Of a DNA stretch of 64,000 nt, positions 5,999-29,316 are shown in pieces. The stretch spans positions 1 to 64,000 of the forward strand of contig NZ_JACJPX010000040.1 of assembly GCF_014696315.1 (NCBI RefSeq), read 5' to 3'. Source of the stretch: Calothrix membranacea FACHB-236. Lineage in GTDB: Bacteria; Cyanobacteriota; Cyanobacteriia; Cyanobacteriales; Nostocaceae. How positions within the stretch are numbered: position 1 is the first letter of the stretch; every line of letters starts with the position of its first letter. The translations under genes and the position numbers were made by a program. The notes below the pieces were generated by a model. That model saw only the letters and a program-made list of their open reading frames with translations. It was not told the origin of the DNA and ran no database searches.

Positions 5999-7702
5999 AT
6001 GAATCTAAATTGGATGAATCAAGTAGGAGACTGGAATCCTCAACTGTTGCGCGAACTTAAAGGAAGGCTGAAACCGCGCAACTTAATACTTTCTGGTGGT
6101 ATCTCATTGCTGGGTCAATTTATCATATTTATGTATTTTCAAACCCAGCTACCTACAAAACTCGAAGTTGTATACAATTCCTTTGACCGATATTGCACAG
6201 GTAAACTCGAATATAATTCGCGGCAATGCCTTTTAGATGGATTTGATAATGTAATTATCAACTGGCAATTGTGGTATTTAGATGTATTTACCTGGCTAGG
6301 TATTATTGGCTCTATTACGCTTTTAGTTGCCGGCACTTACCTAATTATTAATGATTTAGCTGCTGAAGAACGGCGTGAAACCCTCAATTTTATTCGCCTC
6401 AGTCCTCAAACGCCTCAAAGTATTTTATTAGGAAAAATGTTAGGGGTACCGATTTTACTTTATCTTGGGGTACTGTTAGCGGTTCCTTTACATATATGCT
6501 TGGGTATAGCTGGGCAAATTTCCTTAAATGAGATTTTCAGCTTTTACGCAGTAGCGATTGCTGCGGGGATTTTATACTATAGCAGCGCCTTACTATTTGG
6601 CTTAGTTGGTTCCTGGTTGGGAGGCTTTCAAGCTTGGTTAGGTGGTGGTGTCACTTTAGGTTTTCTCCTAGTGACTACGCCAATAGCAGTTACCGCAATA
6701 CCAGATGAATATCCATTAGTTTTTGCTAGGCTGATTAATCCTACTTCCTTAATTCCTGCTACTGCAATTACTTCTGTTTTTCGATATTCAAATACAAGGC
6801 TGAACAATTTTCATTGGTTTGCTTTACCTTTGGGAGAGAACCTAGTAACAACACTTGGCTTTGCTTTATTGATTTACGGTTTGGGAAGCTATTTTATTTG
6901 GCAATCCTTACAACGTTGCTTCCGCGATCCCAATACAACTATGTTGAGCAAGCGGCAGAGTTATTTATTGACTGCTGGTTTTGCATTGATGACTTTGGGA
7001 TGTGCAAATTGGCAAAGATTAGTTTTAGTCCAGAATCCTAGCACATATCTCCTATCGGAAAATCTTATGTGCTTATTATTCTTAGATTTTTGGCTGTGTC
7101 TCTATTTAATTGCTGCGCTTAATCCCCATCGCCAAGCACTCCAAGATTGGGCACGTTATCGCCGCACTTCCAATTCCCAAGGAGTAATAGATAGCAAGCT
7201 AGTAAAGGATTTGATGTGGGGTGAAAAAAGTCCAGGACTGTTAGCGATCGCCATTAATGCCATGATTGCTATTATTGCTATCTGTGGATTACTCTTCCTT
7301 GCCCAAGTTCCATTCGATCAAAAAATCAAAGGTCTTTTCGGTCTAGCGTTATGTGGTAGTTTAGCTATGCTTTATGCATCTATAGCTCAACTATTTTTAT
7401 TCACCAAAAATCAGCATCGAATCTTTTGGGCTGCGGCTACTGTTGGTGCTGTCATTGTATTACCAGTAATAGTTTTAGCCATATTCTCCTCCTACATCAG
7501 AGACAATAATTATTTCTACTTGCTTTCAGTTATTGGGCCGATTTTTGCGATCGCGCCTGGAGTAAACTCAATATCACCCATCACAGCATTGCTGTCAATT
7601 CTTGGTTATTGGAGTGCTGTGGGATTATTGATGTTCCAATTCAAGCGGAAGCTAGTCAAAGCTGGTGAGTCTGCTACAAAGGCATTAATGTCTAGCAATT
7701 AA
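5999..7702 (+). CDS. ABC-2 type permease, second paralogue
   Basis: A 567-aa multi-pass membrane protein that is a clear paralogue of the preceding one. Both begin with a short helix followed by GDWNPQLLRELKGRLK, both carry EERR-TLNF-RLSPQ and GKMLGVPIL, both have SPHRQ/NPHRQ-LQDWARYR in the middle, and both end with GESATKAL. It is shorter mainly because the polar loop after the first membrane segment is reduced. The gap to the first permease is 122 bases, so co-transcription is likely. The pair probably forms a heterodimeric membrane domain for the single ATPase at 2982. The substrate is unknown. Confidence 0.85.
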   Translation: MNLNWMNQVGDWNPQLLRELKGRLKPRNLILSGGISLLGQFIIFMYFQTQLPTKLEVVYNSFDRYCTGKLEYNSRQCLLDGFDNVIINWQLWYLDVFTWLGIIGSITLLVAGTYLIINDLAAEERRETLNFIRLSPQTPQSILLGKMLGVPILLYLGVLLAVPLHICLGIAGQISLNEIFSFYAVAIAAGILYYSSALLFGLVGSWLGGFQAWLGGGVTLGFLLVTTPIAVTAIPDEYPLVFARLINPTSLIPATAITSVFRYSNTRLNNFHWFALPLGENLVTTLGFALLIYGLGSYFIWQSLQRCFRDPNTTMLSKRQSYLLTAGFALMTLGCANWQRLVLVQNPSTYLLSENLMCLLFLDFWLCLYLIAALNPHRQALQDWARYRRTSNSQGVIDSKLVKDLMWGEKSPGLLAIAINAMIAIIAICGLLFLAQVPFDQKIKGLFGLALCGSLAMLYASIAQLFLFTKNQHRIFWAAATVGAVIVLPVIVLAIFSSYIRDNNYFYLLSVIGPIFAIAPGVNSISPITALLSILGYWSAVGLLMFQFKRKLVKAGESATKALMSSN

Positions 7703-7781
7703 GGAACTTACCGCTTGTTGATGGTAGAATCTACCGATGATTAATTGCGATACCTGCGGCAAAGCTTTCTAATAAAACACT

Positions 7782-7836
7782 CTAAAACAAAAACCCAGTG
7801 AAAACCACTGGGTTTTTGTTAGGGTTAATCCCTAAA
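7782..7836 (-). ncRNA. Candidate small RNA, array copy 1
   Basis: Predicted RNA of about 55 nt read on the minus strand. A possible -10 box TATACA lies at 7848-7843. The RNA would have a 5' hairpin (AGGG/CCCT, 7821-7833) and a terminator hairpin (CCCAGTG 7794-7800 with CACTGGG 7806-7812) followed by TTTTTGTTTT. Strand and ends are inferred, and no -35 box is clear. Confidence 0.55.
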
Positions 7837-7979
7837 CTTTACTGTATAAAACTTCTATATACTTGCTGGACTAATAATGATTGAAACAATGCCTAATGTG
7901 CTTCCGCATAACTACTGAACTTATTCATGCCCTCAATTTTTTGTGCTTAAATCTACTGATTATCAGTTGCCAGGATACT

Positions 7980-8034
7980 ATAAAACAAAAACCCAGTGAA
8001 GACCACTGGGTTTTTGTTAGGGTTAATCCCTAAA
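7980..8034 (-). ncRNA. Candidate small RNA, array copy 2
   Basis: Almost identical to copy 1. The -10-like TATACA is at 8046-8041, the 5' hairpin is AGGG/CCCT, and the terminator hairpin is CCCAGTG (7992-7998) with CACTGGG (8004-8010), followed on the minus strand by TTTTTGTTTT. Confidence 0.55.
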
Positions 8035-8295
8035 CTTTACTGTATAAAACTTCTATATACTTGCTGGACTAATAATGATTGAAACAATGCCTGATGCGCT
8101 TCCGCATAACTACTGAACTTATTCAGTCCATCAATTTTTTGTAATTAAATCTACTGATACTCATTATTTATAAATTGTATATCTGTAAAAAAATCTAAAT
8201 ACTCTTTCTCTCCCTACCTCTTGCAGTCTTAATGATACGTTTTTCACAAGACATGATATTACTATGCTTTCGGTAAACCCTTGTGATAATGCAGC

Positions 8296-8348
8296 CTAAA
8301 ACAAAAACCCAGTGGTTTTCACTGGGTTCCTGTTGGGGTTATCCCCAA
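8296..8348 (-). ncRNA. Candidate small RNA, array copy 3
   Basis: Diverged copy. The 5' hairpin is GGGG/CCCC (8335-8338 with 8343-8346), a compensated change from AGGG/CCCT. The terminator stem is 8308-8314 with 8320-8326. The T tract is intact on the minus strand but broken (TTCCTGTT) on the plus strand, which favours minus-strand transcription. The -10-like box is TATACG. Confidence 0.55.
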
Positions 8349-8511
8349 ACTTTCCGTATAAAACTTTTCTATATCTTGGTTTAATAATGCTGGAAACAGT
8401 GCCTATAGCGCTTCCGCATAACTACTGAACTTATTAACAGCAGAAATTTTTTATGCTTGAATCCACGGATCATAAATGGCGATGCTTGCGGAAAACTCTT
8501 GCACTCAGGTA

Positions 8512-8566
8512 CCAAAAAACAAAAACCCAGTTGTAATCACTGGGTTTTTGTTAGGGTTATCCCTAA
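8512..8566 (-). ncRNA. Candidate small RNA, array copy 4
   Basis: The -10-like TATACA is at 8578-8573. The 5' hairpin is AGGG/CCCT with a four-base loop. The terminator stem CCCAGT (8526-8531) pairs with ACTGGG (8539-8544), and the minus-strand T tract is intact. Confidence 0.55.
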
Positions 8567-8730
8567 ACTTTCTGTATAAGAGTTCTCTATATCTTGGTTT
8601 AATAATGCTGGAAACAATGCCTATAGCGCTTCCGCATAACTACTGAACTTATTAACAGCAGAAATTTTTTGTGCTTAAATCTACTGATAATAAATTGCGG
8701 TGCTTTTGGGTAACCCTTGCAGTAAGGTAC

Positions 8731-8786
8731 TGAAAAACAAAAACCCAGTTGTAATTACTGGGTTTTTGTTGGGGTATGTCCCCGAA
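8731..8786 (-). ncRNA. Candidate small RNA, array copy 5
   Basis: Most diverged copy. The -10-like TATACA is at 8798-8793, the 5' hairpin is GGGG/CCCC (again compensated), and the terminator stem CCCAGT (8744-8749) pairs with ACTGGG. The upstream block differs most and contains TCCGGA near 8854. Confidence 0.5.
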
Positions 8787-8913
8787 CTTTTCTGTATAGA
8801 ACTTCGTTATATTTGCTTGTCTGATAATGATTACAACGGTATGTTTGACGATTCCGGAAAACTACTCAAATTGCTGATACTCATAGGATGATGGGGAAAA
8901 TACCAACTAAACT

Positions 8914-9672
8914 ATGCCAGAAAATCACCAAATCGCTGTTGAATTCCGCGATGTCACCTTTAGCCGCAACCATCGCCCTTTGGTATCTCATCTCAATTTC
9001 TCCATCCGCCAGGGAGAAGCGCTAGTCTTGCTGGGGCGCAGTGGGAGTGGTAAAACCACGACGATGAAATTAATTAATCGCCTGTTCACCCCTACCACTG
9101 GCGAAGTGTTATTTGATGGTGTCCCCACAACGCAATGGGACGAAATTAAACTGCGGCGCAAGATTGGTTATGTAATTCAAGAGACTGGTTTATTTCCCCA
9201 TTTCACAGTGGAACGCAATGTAGGTTTAGTTCCCACTTTAGAAGGTTGGAAGCCAAAACAAATTAAAACACGGGTGTATGAGTTGTTGCAATTGGTAGGT
9301 TTAGAACCAGAACAATTTGCTGGGCGTTATCCCCACGAACTTTCGGGGGGACAAAGGCAAAGGGTAGGTGTAGCTAGGGCACTTGCAGCCGATCCGCCTG
9401 TATTATTAATGGATGAACCATTTGGCGCACTCGATCCGATTACCAGACTGGAAATTCAACAGGAGTTTCGACGCTTACAACGAGAATTAGGCAAAACCGT
9501 TGTGTTTGTCACCCACGACATTCAAGAAGCATTTGTGTTGGCATCGAGAATTGGTTTAATGTATGAGGGAGAATTGATAGTATTAGGGACAAAGGATGAA
9601 TTTATGTTATCCTCACATCCCGAAAGCCTAGCTTTCCTCCAATGTCTGCATTCTCTGCAAGACAATTTATGA
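8914..9672 (+). CDS. Osmoprotectant (glycine betaine/choline-type) ABC transporter ATP-binding protein
   Basis: ATPase subunit of an OpuC/ProV-type importer for compatible solutes such as glycine betaine. The 252-aa protein has Walker A GRSGSGKTT (about 40-48), a Q-loop in GYVIQETGLFPH, the signature LSGGQRQR and Walker B VLLMDEPFGALDP with the switch His in FVTHDIQEA. Unlike OpuCA or ProV (about 380-400 aa) it has no C-terminal CBS pair, so ionic-strength sensing through CBS domains is not expected. It is the first gene of a three-gene operon. Its stop overlaps the ATG of the permease in an ATGA arrangement. Confidence 0.9.
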   Translation: MPENHQIAVEFRDVTFSRNHRPLVSHLNFSIRQGEALVLLGRSGSGKTTTMKLINRLFTPTTGEVLFDGVPTTQWDEIKLRRKIGYVIQETGLFPHFTVERNVGLVPTLEGWKPKQIKTRVYELLQLVGLEPEQFAGRYPHELSGGQRQRVGVARALAADPPVLLMDEPFGALDPITRLEIQQEFRRLQRELGKTVVFVTHDIQEAFVLASRIGLMYEGELIVLGTKDEFMLSSHPESLAFLQCLHSLQDNL

Positions 9673-10301
9673 AAGATTTCTTTTTGATTAAGTACGCCCC
9701 CGAAATTTTGCAGCATACGCTGGAACATTTATTTATGGTGGGCATTGCGATTGGAATTGCCATATTAATCGGCATTCCTTTAGGTATTTTAATTACCCGT
9801 CAAACTCAACTCCGCCAACCAATTTTAGGTATTGCCAATATTTTACAAACTATTCCTAGTTTGGCTTTATTTGGGTTATTAATTCCTGTGCCTGTAATTG
9901 GTGGGATTGGCGTAGTACCAGCGATAGTGGCTTTAACTTTATATTCTTTATTACCCATAATTCGCAATACTTACACTGGCATTATTGGTGTTGATCCAGC
10001 AATTAGAGAAGCTGGGCGAGGTATGGGAATGACAGATAAAGAATTGTTATTACAAGTAGAAATTCCTTTAGCAATGGGAGTAATTTTAGCTGGGGTAAGA
10101 GTCGCCACTGTCATTGCTATTGGGATTGCAACCATTGCTGCTGCTATTGGTGCTGGTGGGTTAGGTGTATTTATTTTTCGCGGGATTGCAGTAGTAAATA
10201 ATCAGTTAATCTTAGCGGGCGCAGTTCCAGCGGCATTAATTGCCTTAATTGCTGATTTAGTAATTGGTTGGATTGAAGGAAAATTGAAAGTTAAAGGTTA
10301 A
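9669..10301 (+). CDS. Osmoprotectant ABC transporter permease
   Basis: Integral membrane subunit of the importer, 210 aa, with five to six hydrophobic segments and the EAA-type loop REAGRGMGMTDKELLLQVEIPLAMGVI that docks to the ATPase. I place the start at ATG 9669 (MKDFFLIKYAP), which overlaps the upstream TGA by four bases and gives the usual OpuCB/OpuCD length. The longer reading from 9642 would add nine residues. Only one permease gene is present, so a homodimeric membrane domain is likely, in contrast to OpuCB plus OpuCD in Bacillus. Confidence 0.9.
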   Translation: MKDFFLIKYAPEILQHTLEHLFMVGIAIGIAILIGIPLGILITRQTQLRQPILGIANILQTIPSLALFGLLIPVPVIGGIGVVPAIVALTLYSLLPIIRNTYTGIIGVDPAIREAGRGMGMTDKELLLQVEIPLAMGVILAGVRVATVIAIGIATIAAAIGAGGLGVFIFRGIAVVNNQLILAGAVPAALIALIADLVIGWIEGKLKVKG

Positions 10302-10334
10302 CAAAATTTGCAGAGTCAAAAGTAATCTTTTAAG

Positions 10335-11234
10335 ATGAAAAAATTTGTGGCTTTATGCCTATTAACGATTGCTTTAGTAGTGGCGATCGCTAGTTGTAGC
10401 CCTAATACAAATACAAGTAGTGGTGGCGATATTATTGTCGCTTCTAAAGATTTTACAGAACAAGATATTTTAGGTGAAATTTTAGCCCAACAAATCGAAG
10501 CAACAACTAATTTAAAAGTGTCCCGTCGTCCCCGATTGGGTGGTTCTTTTGTTTGCCATAGTGCAATTACGGCGGGGAAAATCGATGCGTATATTGAGTA
10601 TACTGGTACAGCTTTTACAGGTATTTTAAAACAGCAAGTAATTAACGACCCCAAAATAGTTTACGCAAAACTAAAACAAGCCTACGCCGAACAATTTAAT
10701 TTAGATGTAATGCCAAGTTTGGGTTTTGAAAACACTTTTGCCATTATTATTCGTGGGGAAGATGCCAAGCGCTACAATTTGCAAAATCTCTCAGAAGCTA
10801 CTCAATATACACCCCAGTGGCGTGGCGGGTTTGGCTATGAATTTTTGGAACGGGAAGATGGCTTTCCGGGTTTAGCGAAAACCTACAATTTACGGTTTGC
10901 GAAATCACCGCAAATTATGGATTTAGGTTTAATTTATCGGGCTTTAATTCAAAAACAGGTAGATATGGTAGCGGGTAATTCTACAGATGGGCAAATTTCC
11001 CGCTTGGGTTTAGTGGTATTGCAGGATGATAAGCAGTATTTTCCACCTTATGAAGCTACGCCAATTGTCCGCAAAGCCACCTTAGAAAAATATCCGCAGT
11101 TAAAAAATGCGATCGCTCAACTGGCTGGTAAAATTTCCGCAGACGAAATGCGGCAATTAAATTACCTAGTTGAGGGTGAATTACAGGATATTAAAGATGT
11201 TGTGCGGGAATTCCGAAAATCCAAAGGATTATAG
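10335..11234 (+). CDS. Osmoprotectant ABC transporter substrate-binding lipoprotein
   Basis: Extracytoplasmic solute receptor of the OpuAC/OpuCC (QAT) family, 299 aa. It has a lipoprotein signal peptide: MKKF, a hydrophobic stretch, then the lipobox IASC with the lipid-modified Cys at about residue 21. The mature domain carries VASKDFTEQDILGEILAQ and DAYIEYTGTAFTG, characteristic of quaternary-ammonium binding proteins. It follows the permease by 33 bases and ends three bases before a strong terminator. Whether it prefers glycine betaine, choline or another osmolyte cannot be read from the sequence. Confidence 0.9.
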   Translation: MKKFVALCLLTIALVVAIASCSPNTNTSSGGDIIVASKDFTEQDILGEILAQQIEATTNLKVSRRPRLGGSFVCHSAITAGKIDAYIEYTGTAFTGILKQQVINDPKIVYAKLKQAYAEQFNLDVMPSLGFENTFAIIIRGEDAKRYNLQNLSEATQYTPQWRGGFGYEFLEREDGFPGLAKTYNLRFAKSPQIMDLGLIYRALIQKQVDMVAGNSTDGQISRLGLVVLQDDKQYFPPYEATPIVRKATLEKYPQLKNAIAQLAGKISADEMRQLNYLVEGELQDIKDVVREFRKSKGL

Positions 11235-26739: not shown

Positions 26740-29316
26740 TTGTGGAAATTAGGCAGAAATCAAGAAGCACTGGAAAGCTACAACAAAGCAATTGAACTCA
26801 ATCCTAAATATAAGACTGCATGGAATGGTCGTGGTAATGCTTTATGGAACTTGGGCAGAAATCAAGAAGCACTGGAAAGCTACAATAAAGAAATTGAAAT
26901 CAATTCAAACTATGAAAATGCATGGAGTGGTCATGGTGATGCTTTATGGAAATTAGGCAGAGACCAAGAGGCAGTGGAAAGCTACAATAAAGCAATTGAA
27001 ATCAATTCAAACTATGAGAATGCATGGAATGGTCGTGGCAATGCATTGTTGAATTTGCGACAATTTGAAGAAGCACTGAAAAGCTACAATAAAGCAATTG
27101 AAATCAATCCTCACTATGAGACTGCATGGAGTGGTCATGGTGATGCTTTATGGAAATTAGGCAGAAACCAAGAGGCAGTGGAAAGCTACAATAAAGCAGT
27201 TGAAATCAATCCTTACTATGAGAATGCGTGGAATGGTCGTGGTAATGTGCTGTTGAATTTGCGACAATTTGAAGAAGCACTGGAAAGCTACAATAAAGCA
27301 ATTGAAATCAATCCTCACTATGAGACTGCATGGAGTGGTCATGGTGATGCTTTATGGAACTTGGGAAGAAATCAAGAAGCGCTGGAAAGCTACAATAAAG
27401 CAGTTGAAATCAATCCTTACTATGAGAATGCGTGGAATGGTCGTGGTAATGTGCTGTTGAATTTGCGACAATATCAAGAAGCACTTGCATCTTATGATGA
27501 AGCTCTAAGGCTAACAAATAATCAGTATTGGTTAGCTTGGGACAATCGAGGTGTGGCAGTCCTCAAATTTCAAAACTACAAAGCTGCGGTCAAAACATGG
27601 AATGATGGCATTAATGCACTTCAGCCAGAGACACCAGAATATGAGATAGGTTGTGGTAAGTTATATCATCGCAAGGGCGCAATTTTGTATAACTATGGAA
27701 AGCTGCAACCTAATCCTTTTCCAGATTGGTTTGCAGCTAAGGCCAGTTATGAACAAGCGCTCAATTTTCTGAGTTTTGATAAATTCCCCCAAATACATCT
27801 GCAAATATTAGAAGAATTACTGCAAGTATGTTCTGTATTGGGTGACAATCAAACATTCAAAAAAAGACAAGAAGAAGCGACGCAAAAGCTAGAAGAATTA
27901 GTTGTAAATTGCCAAACTAAAGGTCAAGAAATTAGTCTTAGGCGAAAATTTGCAGCTTTTAACCAATTGCGAATAGATTTACGCCTCAAGTCAAAAAATA
28001 AACAGCAACACATAGAAGCTTTAGAGTTGGCGGAAGAACGTAAGAATATTTGCCTTGCTTGGCTACGCGAAGGTTGGGATTATCAACCACGCCAGTTTAC
28101 TTATCAGGATATGCAAAGGCTACTTAATCATAAAACTGCGGCGGTATATTGGCACGTCAGCCCTATTGCAATCACGACTTTTATTGTTAAATATAATCAG
28201 CCGCCTGTAGTACTGCAACCGCAATTACCAGACGAATTCAAAAAGCAAGGCTATCCCCCACATACTTATCAACTCCTACGCTTTCAAAACTGGATACAGG
28301 AATGGAAGCAAGCTTATCAAGATTATTCCCAAGGTAATTACACAGGTACAGCTAAAGAATCAGCCCCTTGGCGAGAAAAGATGCAATATATGTTGCAAAA
28401 TCAACTCCGTAACATTTTAGAAATTAATCGCATCCGAGATGAACTCAAAGGAGTTGAAGAATTAATTTTAATTCCCCATCGAGAGTTACATCTACTGCCC
28501 CTAGATTATCTTTTTCCTGAGCGATTTAACATTACATATTTACCAAGCTTTCAGATAGGTTTAAAGTTGTTAGCGCAGGAGAATCAATTTCAGCTAAATA
28601 CTAGCCAGAACATAGTAAACGTAGCCACCAGCAATTTACCATTTGCGACTATTGAATCAGTTGCCTTATGTGCAATGTATCCACGAGTTAGGCAATTACA
28701 AATTCCACCAGTTAACCCAAATAATTTAATTGCAGAATTACGAAGAAATAGAGGATTGTTTCACTTTACTGGACATAGTGACCACATACCAGAAGAACCT
28801 CGTGAGTCATTTTTGATGTTATCTAACTCTGATAAATTAACTTTGGGTAATATAGTTGATGATGACGAGATAGATTTAAGTCAGTATGCTGTAATTTGCC
28901 TTTCATCTTGCGAAACGGGAATTACTAGTTCAGAAACTTTAACAGATGAATATGTCGGCTTGGTAAGCGGTTTTCTTGCCAAGGGAGCTAACTATGTTGT
29001 TAGTACTCTATGGACAGTAGATGAACGCTCTACAGCCATTTTAATGATTAAATTTTATGAATTATTTAAAACAGCTAAGTCTCCTAGTATTGCGCTGAGA
29101 GAGGCTAAACAATGGCTACGTCAGTTAACTTATCAAGATTTGGCAGTATGGTATAAAGAATTAGCTCAGAATTTGCCTGAGCCTCAAGTGCAAGATTATT
29201 TAATCACTGAAGCGAAAATGATTGAAAATGACTTGGATAAGATGAATGATACTATGCCTGTTTATGCCCATCCTTATTATTGGGCTGGGTTTATTTTAAC
29301 GGGTAAGCCTGTATAA
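26740..29316 (+). CDS. TPR-CHAT domain protein, 3' part
   Basis: An 858-codon ORF in the same frame as the TPR ORF upstream. About eight more TPRs (to about residue 265) are followed by a helical linker and a C-terminal CHAT domain (caspase HetF-associated with TPRs), a clan CD peptidase-like fold. The putative catalytic His lies in FHFTGHSDH and the Cys in CLSSCETG. The domain ends with YYWAGFILTG, the usual C-terminus of the family. The only early start available is a TTG (26740) inside the repeats with no clear ribosome-binding site. Efficient independent translation is therefore doubtful, and readthrough or a dead gene must be considered. Confidence 0.8.
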   Translation: MWKLGRNQEALESYNKAIELNPKYKTAWNGRGNALWNLGRNQEALESYNKEIEINSNYENAWSGHGDALWKLGRDQEAVESYNKAIEINSNYENAWNGRGNALLNLRQFEEALKSYNKAIEINPHYETAWSGHGDALWKLGRNQEAVESYNKAVEINPYYENAWNGRGNVLLNLRQFEEALESYNKAIEINPHYETAWSGHGDALWNLGRNQEALESYNKAVEINPYYENAWNGRGNVLLNLRQYQEALASYDEALRLTNNQYWLAWDNRGVAVLKFQNYKAAVKTWNDGINALQPETPEYEIGCGKLYHRKGAILYNYGKLQPNPFPDWFAAKASYEQALNFLSFDKFPQIHLQILEELLQVCSVLGDNQTFKKRQEEATQKLEELVVNCQTKGQEISLRRKFAAFNQLRIDLRLKSKNKQQHIEALELAEERKNICLAWLREGWDYQPRQFTYQDMQRLLNHKTAAVYWHVSPIAITTFIVKYNQPPVVLQPQLPDEFKKQGYPPHTYQLLRFQNWIQEWKQAYQDYSQGNYTGTAKESAPWREKMQYMLQNQLRNILEINRIRDELKGVEELILIPHRELHLLPLDYLFPERFNITYLPSFQIGLKLLAQENQFQLNTSQNIVNVATSNLPFATIESVALCAMYPRVRQLQIPPVNPNNLIAELRRNRGLFHFTGHSDHIPEEPRESFLMLSNSDKLTLGNIVDDDEIDLSQYAVICLSSCETGITSSETLTDEYVGLVSGFLAKGANYVVSTLWTVDERSTAILMIKFYELFKTAKSPSIALREAKQWLRQLTYQDLAVWYKELAQNLPEPQVQDYLITEAKMIENDLDKMNDTMPVYAHPYYWAGFILTGKPV
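26921..27532 (+). repeat. Three 204-bp tandem units inside the TPR region
   Basis: Units start near 26921, 27125 and 27329, each encoding two 34-residue TPRs (one GHGDALW type, one GRGNVLLNLRQ type). The second and third units are nearly identical at DNA level, showing recent expansion. Confidence 0.85.

Follow-up and report, generated by a model that had tools for sequence, protein, structure and literature searches.

A tandem array of five predicted small RNA genes in Calothrix membranacea FACHB-236 and its dispersed family, distinct from NsiR1

Introduction

Between two groups of ABC-type genes, the 64,000-nt stretch of Calothrix membranacea FACHB-236 DNA analyzed here (the window) contains five similar short repeats, each with two potential hairpins. 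The question is whether these repeats are small RNA (sRNA) genes related to NsiR1, sRNA genes of another family, or DNA elements such as operators or insulating terminators. The original prediction, made from the sequence, was a minus-strand array of five RNAs of about 55 nt, either a new array or a relocated relative of NsiR1.

Organization of the Array

The array consists of five tandem direct copies on the minus strand (7784–7878, 7982–8076, 8298–8388, 8516–8606 and 8734–8828) with uneven copy-to-copy spacing (198, 316, 218 and 218 nt). A BLAST search of the strain's own genome (G000, 8.81 Mb) using copy 1 returned the other four copies with E-values of 3.5e-78, 1.4e-49, 4.9e-36 and 7.7e-20. 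This likeness is far beyond chance, and the predicted five-copy array is real. The conserved unit starts at a box resembling TTTTCCGGAAT; in window coordinates, it reaches 7914 in copy 1 and 8864 in copy 5. The predicted sRNAs and their neighbors are as follows (covariance models R1 and R2 are described below).

5999–7702, plus strand: upstream neighbor, a 567-aa protein of the same similarity cluster as the preceding 638-aa ABC-2-like ORF; no Pfam match
7784–7872, minus strand: copy 1 predicted sRNA (R1 and R2 matches; favored start near 7872, placed by offset 30 past the box; T tract ends near 7784)
7982–8070, minus strand: copy 2 predicted sRNA (R1 and R2 matches, box offset; nearest to copy 1 in the tree)
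8298–8382, minus strand: copy 3 predicted sRNA (R1 and R2 matches, box offset; plus-strand T run broken)
8516–8600, minus strand: copy 4 predicted sRNA (R1 and R2 matches, box offset)
8734–8822, minus strand: copy 5 predicted sRNA, probable founder type (R1 and R2 matches, box offset; outside the clade of copies 1–4)
8914–11234, plus strand: downstream neighbor, a ProV-like ATPase, a BPD permease and an OpuAC/OsmF-like binding protein (Pfam PF00005, PF00528, PF04069)

The 638-aa ORF had a match to ABC2_membrane_2 below the cut-off. The downstream operon appears to be of the betaine/choline type, with NCBIfam proV and OsmF matches that are below their cut-offs.

All five copies contain the CCCAGT/ACTGGG stem with TTTTTGTTTT behind it on the minus strand, and the plus-strand T run is interrupted (TTCCTGTT) in copy 3 only. 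For the 5' hairpin, copies 1, 2 and 4 have the stem AGGG/CCCT, whereas copies 3 and 5 have GGGG/CCCC; TATAC(A/G)G is found in register in every copy. In these details, the original prediction was correct. The long upstream conservation that it also described holds for copies 1–4 and fails for copy 5, which differs there and whose upstream region resembles the form seen in relatives. Judging from the sequence, a minus-strand tandem array of terminator-ended predicted sRNA genes is supported, and its transcription from this strand is very probable.

Relation to NsiR1 and Other Rfam Families

The suggested kinship with NsiR1, or relocation from its locus, was not borne out. A covariance search with the NsiR1 model (RF02399) gave no match in region 7700–8920 at E-values up to 10, and the same genome contains 12 Rfam NsiR1 matches upstream of hetF. 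The hetF locus was located among seven further regions selected from 58 CHAT-domain matches of the genome. It lies on contig C68 and contains a tandem array with a period of ~130 nt beside an 830-aa ORF that was identified as HetF (NCBIfam NF045509; 1500.7 bits, cut-off 1200). One of the 58 CHAT-domain matches is situated inside the window, at 28402–29304.

The array studied here is not located upstream of hetF; its neighbors are ABC-type genes. The covariance model R1 was built from eight units, namely the five array copies and three units of a second locus of the same genome, and it found no match at the HetF locus at E-values up to 0.05. The array family is distinct from NsiR1.

No Rfam match reached the gathering score in the whole 64-kb window. 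Other Rfam families gave only matches below the gathering score in 7700–8920, and these were read as chance. Scans of seven loci with family members (L009, L076, L101, L186, L266, L185 and L131) returned only a tRNA. As far as tested, the array family is absent from Rfam 15.

Distribution of the Family and History of the Locus

R1 found its eight source units in the strain's own genome with E-values below 1e-15, which is so by construction, and otherwise gave weak matches (best E-value 0.002). A longer model, R2, adds the conserved upstream block. Both models draw on units from some of the searched genomes, and with more than 40 genomes in a search stricter filters applied, by which weak members may be missed; under these settings, R1 (E-value 0.01) matched 23 of 58 genomes, namely 23/34 in the window's family f1 and 0/24 in other families, while R2 (E-value 0.001) matched 102 of 145 f1 genomes, leaving 43 without a match, and all 13 genomes of one genus. 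In an order-wide sample of 195 genomes, five matched R2 (E-value 0.01), all of them in f1, and at least seven f1 genomes did not. Judging by its named members, f1 is presumably Nostocaceae.

Another five-copy tandem array, with a period of 152–153 nt, was found in genome G142. High match counts were obtained for G028 (18) and for G115 (21, in an assembly with 38% contamination). Since some genomes hold many matches, a mobile-element reading was considered; it was set aside because the family positions are kept in the window genus. A scan with a NAD(P)-binding protein (PF13460) encoded beside a family member gave 173 loci; among the 80 of these listed (L186–L265), 12 contain a family member up to 3 kb upstream of the gene for this protein (e.g., L186, L187 and L263), and 10 of these 12 members are within ~300 nt of it, so the link of the family to this gene is not universal. 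At L184 (G161:C1:2833000–2842000), a family member lies ~1.2 kb upstream of an ORF that we take to resemble NifB.

All eight congeneric genomes examined (G000–G007) carry the family at the locus flanked by the 567-aa protein and the ProV-like ATPase. One copy is present in G001, G004 and G006, four in G002 and G007, and five in G000, G003 and G005. In a tree of 51 units, copies 1–4 group with their counterparts (18 rows) in a clade supported at 100/100, and copy 5 and its counterparts fall outside this clade; many inner forks of the tree are weak (20/47 open), and units of the second locus also nest near the copy 5 type. Copy 5 looks like the founder. The tree and the single-copy species are best read as growth of the array in place from one copy beside the ABC operon. 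Copy 2 of the window is separated by a path of 0.024 from copy 1 versus 0.064 from the second copies of G003 and G005, which suggests local homogenization.

The second locus is situated near a cytochrome c-like gene and contains three units in G000 and G005, four in G003, five in G002 and six in G007. The three units of the strain's own genome are on a contig other than that of the array, at C1:154535–154959 (L009:7500–7961, corresponding to G000:C1:154499–154960), and were also returned by the BLAST search with copy 1. Several second-locus units group by species in the tree, as if homogenized. A lone 3' end of a second-locus unit, including the terminator, was found beside short tandem repeats at L056 (G000:C1:121829–121934) and is a detached fragment of the array family.

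Promoter Region and Length of the Predicted RNAs

Two forms of the upstream box were found in the window.

8853–8858, minus strand: copy 5, exact TCCGGA with G at offset 18; NsiR1 (DIF1)-like distance to the conserved G and to the putative start
7903–7908 (copy 1), 8101–8106, 8413–8418 and 8631–8636 (copies 2–4), minus strand: TGCGGA, one mismatch to TCCGGA; T at offset 18 replaces the conserved G

For comparison of the relatives, nhmmer matches spanning most of the profile were used (490 rows, 144 distinct cores). Three cores (L150, L176 and L177), in which the rule found no terminator, were left out. The resulting 141 members, with close paralogs among them, are not an independent set. They have TCCGGA without mismatch in 44 cases, with one mismatch in 92 and with two in 5. 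Counting from the TCCGGA-like box, G stands at offset 18 in 117/141 members and A at offset 30 in 93%. For the distance from the box end to GTA, the patterns used found no box in 8 of the 141 members; the distance was measured in 113 and is 17 nt in 100 of them. The NsiR1 copies of the same genome have G at offset 18 (9/12) or 17 (3/12), and the Rfam NsiR1 model starts 29 nt (9/12) or 28 nt (3/12) from TCCGGA. This motif is described as centered near -35 and required for heterocyst-specific expression (PMC7377430, PMC6133370).

Because the TCCGGA-like box of copy 5 and of most relatives stands at a rigid distance from the conserved G and A, near the NsiR1 (DIF1) layout, RNAs of ~85–90 nt are favored over RNAs of 55 nt. 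By this layout, the start would be at the AGACAAGC/AGTCCAG block, giving RNAs of 85–89 nt, including the T tract, in the window. The length from the putative start to the stem end across the family has a median of 84 nt (59–108). The originally predicted size of 55 nt is doubtful, as the conserved upstream block fits a start ~30–35 nt earlier.

A start just past the TATAC(A/G)G box would give RNAs of ~50–55 nt with two hairpins, the upstream blocks then being activator sites. The TATA-like box is in register not only in the five copies but also in most relatives shown, and a 51-nt sRNA of Nostoc PCC 7120, 4547237r, compared by description, has homologs only in heterocystous strains (PMC4734099). 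However, two TATA-like boxes are usually present, 13 nt apart in 74 of the 119 members in which this spacing was measured, and three are seen by eye in L077, so they look more like transcribed or repeated sequence than like one -10 element. The rigid spacing is found instead between the TCCGGA-like box and GTA. We retain the short form as a rival and consider it rather unlikely.

The -10 region of the array family (GTAGT/GTAAT) differs from that of NsiR1 in the same genome (AGAAC/AGAAG), and a simple scan of 7600–8980 found no sigma-70-like site (shuffle mean 4.8). The region upstream of hetR in this genome (~1.3 kb) contains neither exact TCCGGA nor GGGN5CCC; without exact TCCGGA, hetR is unusable as a DIF1 control. 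DIF1-type control of the founder-type copies is reasonably probable from the box and its spacing. In copies 1–4, which have TGCGGA and a T where the conserved G would stand, the promoter may have changed.

Copy 5 and the ABC operon are separated by the palindromic TTCCGGAA box of this copy (window 8850–8914), which is ~55 nt from the start of the ATPase ORF. The three single-copy species carry TTTCGGAAA at its place. As a speculation, this box could serve the sRNA and the ABC operon in both directions.

RNA Structure and Terminator

Each copy contains two hairpin-forming segments.

7786–7820 (copy 1), 7984–8018, 8300–8334, 8518–8552 and 8736–8770, minus strand: terminator-like stem (inverted repeats; covariation in relatives)
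7819–7835 (copy 1), 8017–8033, 8333–8348, 8551–8566 and 8769–8785, minus strand: 5' hairpin (folded in 5/5 copies; covariation in relatives)

The inverted repeats of the terminator stem are 100% complementary in copies 1, 2, 4 and 5 and 87% complementary in copy 3. Folding of the five predicted RNAs (81–85 nt) gave z-scores of -4.47 to -5.13, and none of 200 shuffles of each RNA folded as well. In alignment A7, comprising 98 distinct sequences from 74 chosen sources (a subset of loci), 97.0% of cells were paired and double changes were found in 9/14 pairs, with the alignment fitted to R2 so that the pair counts lean towards this model. None of 500 shuffles was as high on any of five measures, and slid controls were lower on all. 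Double changes were found across relatives in all four counted pairs of the 5' hairpin. Thus, signs of the selection on RNA structure that had been proposed from the differences between the copies were found, both hairpins covarying across the 98 sequences, and the hairpins are kept at the orthologous loci.

A rule-based search of the 141 members picked the G-rich hairpin in 118 and a different hairpin in 23. The G-rich stem occurs, for example, as GGGG/CCCC, TAGGG/CCCTA, GGAG/CTCC, GAGGA/TCCTC and GCGG/CCGC, and the loop, over all 141 picked hairpins, is 5 nt long in 98 and 3–8 nt long in the remainder.

The array copies have a GC stem followed by a T tract, with conserved structure, as in an intrinsic terminator. 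The T bias favors the minus-strand direction in 78 of the 141 members, is equal in 44 and is opposite in 19, and is moderate. A simple scan of 7600–8980 found five terminator-like sites (shuffle mean 1.1), of which only that of copy 4 is on the minus strand; the other four are 5' hairpins read on the plus strand.

These plus-strand sites would also be expected if the repeats were bidirectional terminators insulating two neighboring operons, with no functional RNA. With A runs before and T runs after their stems, copies 1, 2, 4 and 5 could terminate plus-strand transcription from the operon whose end is at 7702. However, many other loci show joint conservation of the stem, the second hairpin, the box and the spacing, single-copy species retain a copy near the downstream operon, and insulation does not need the conserved upstream block. 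This makes the insulator reading improbable.

A HetR operator in DNA, with the repeats as HetR-binding clusters, is likewise improbable. The sequence required by HetR, GGGnnnnnCCC (PMC4192349), is seen by eye in four of the window copies, copy 4 being the exception with a gap of 4 nt, and in 71/141 members. However, the other half of the family lacks it, the gap is variable whereas a dimer site needs fixed spacing, and stem variants arise by double substitution and via G-U forms. As the sole reading, it is disfavored with 71/141 members fitting, and the RNA reading is favored because gaps vary and G-U forms occur; an operator and an RNA hairpin could both be true at once.

Proposed Function

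The best explanation, to which we assign a probability of about 60% including the proposed regulation and action, is that the array comprises five paralogous minus-strand sRNA genes of a dispersed, multi-copy Nostocaceae family distinct from NsiR1. The sequences show the family, its conserved structure, the common locus and the duplication; transcription, start site, regulation and mode of action are inferred from them. Most likely, the RNAs serve in nitrogen stress or in heterocysts and act by base pairing. Each unit would consist of a promoter region of its own, a 5' part of ~35–40 nt with weak structure, a short conserved hairpin and an intrinsic terminator. From the putative TCCGGA-type (DIF1-like) promoter of the founder-type copy 5 and of most relatives, HetR/HetZ-dependent induction would be expected in cells that differentiate into heterocysts. 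Copies 1–4 are diverged duplicates in which the box is altered and the conserved upstream block is another one, so that their expression may differ.

The RNAs would act in trans on their targets through base pairing of the 5' part, for which we see roughly even chances. The array would supply dose and slightly different siblings. The sibling idea is modeled on NsiR1, whose siblings in Nostoc PCC 7120 have different targets (PMC9045159).

A broader view is tentative: in addition to NsiR1, heterocyst-forming cyanobacteria may possess another sRNA family that is dispersed and under DIF1 control. Its repeated expansion into tandem arrays, with promoter and sequence divergence among the copies, would supply sets of sibling regulators in differentiation, and the founder copy of the window would share its palindromic promoter box with a divergent osmolyte transporter operon. 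If this is true, species with one copy and species with four to six would form a natural series for dosage effects of tandem sRNAs.

Comparison with Known Systems

The open-access literature searched contained no description of the array family in the text available, and the text of a Nodularia paper had nothing on the matching position. The NsiR1-like layout noted in the original prediction, with tandem units that each apparently have their own promoter region, is a fair analogy. Like NsiR1 (RF02399), the family has tandem units, apparent own promoters, a terminator-like end and diverged sibling copies, and the TCCGGA box is at a similar distance from the putative start. Unlike NsiR1, it has an extra conserved 5' hairpin and no Rfam NsiR1 match, and it is dispersed at different loci, with NsiR1 kept separately at hetF in the same genome.

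The size range is similar to that of NsiR9 and the predicted Nostoc PCC 7120 sRNAs 4451847f, 2375634r and 4547237r, a comparison made by description, and the array family may coincide with one of them. In Table 1 of PMC4734099, the homologs of these sRNAs are reported only in heterocystous genomes, and NsiR9 induction depends on hetR. The motif TCCGGA and its distance to the putative start are also shared with the DIF1 promoters of hetR, patS and patX. In contrast to these, the motif shows one mismatch in many members of the array family, and the -10 region differs from that of NsiR1.

The array family has no Rfam 15 match where tested. The tandem habit of heterocyst sRNAs is known from NsiR1, the only such tandem sRNA met in the accessible text of the literature searched. 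A second family with this habit, if true, would widen the range of RNA regulators worth testing in the differentiation of bacterial cells.
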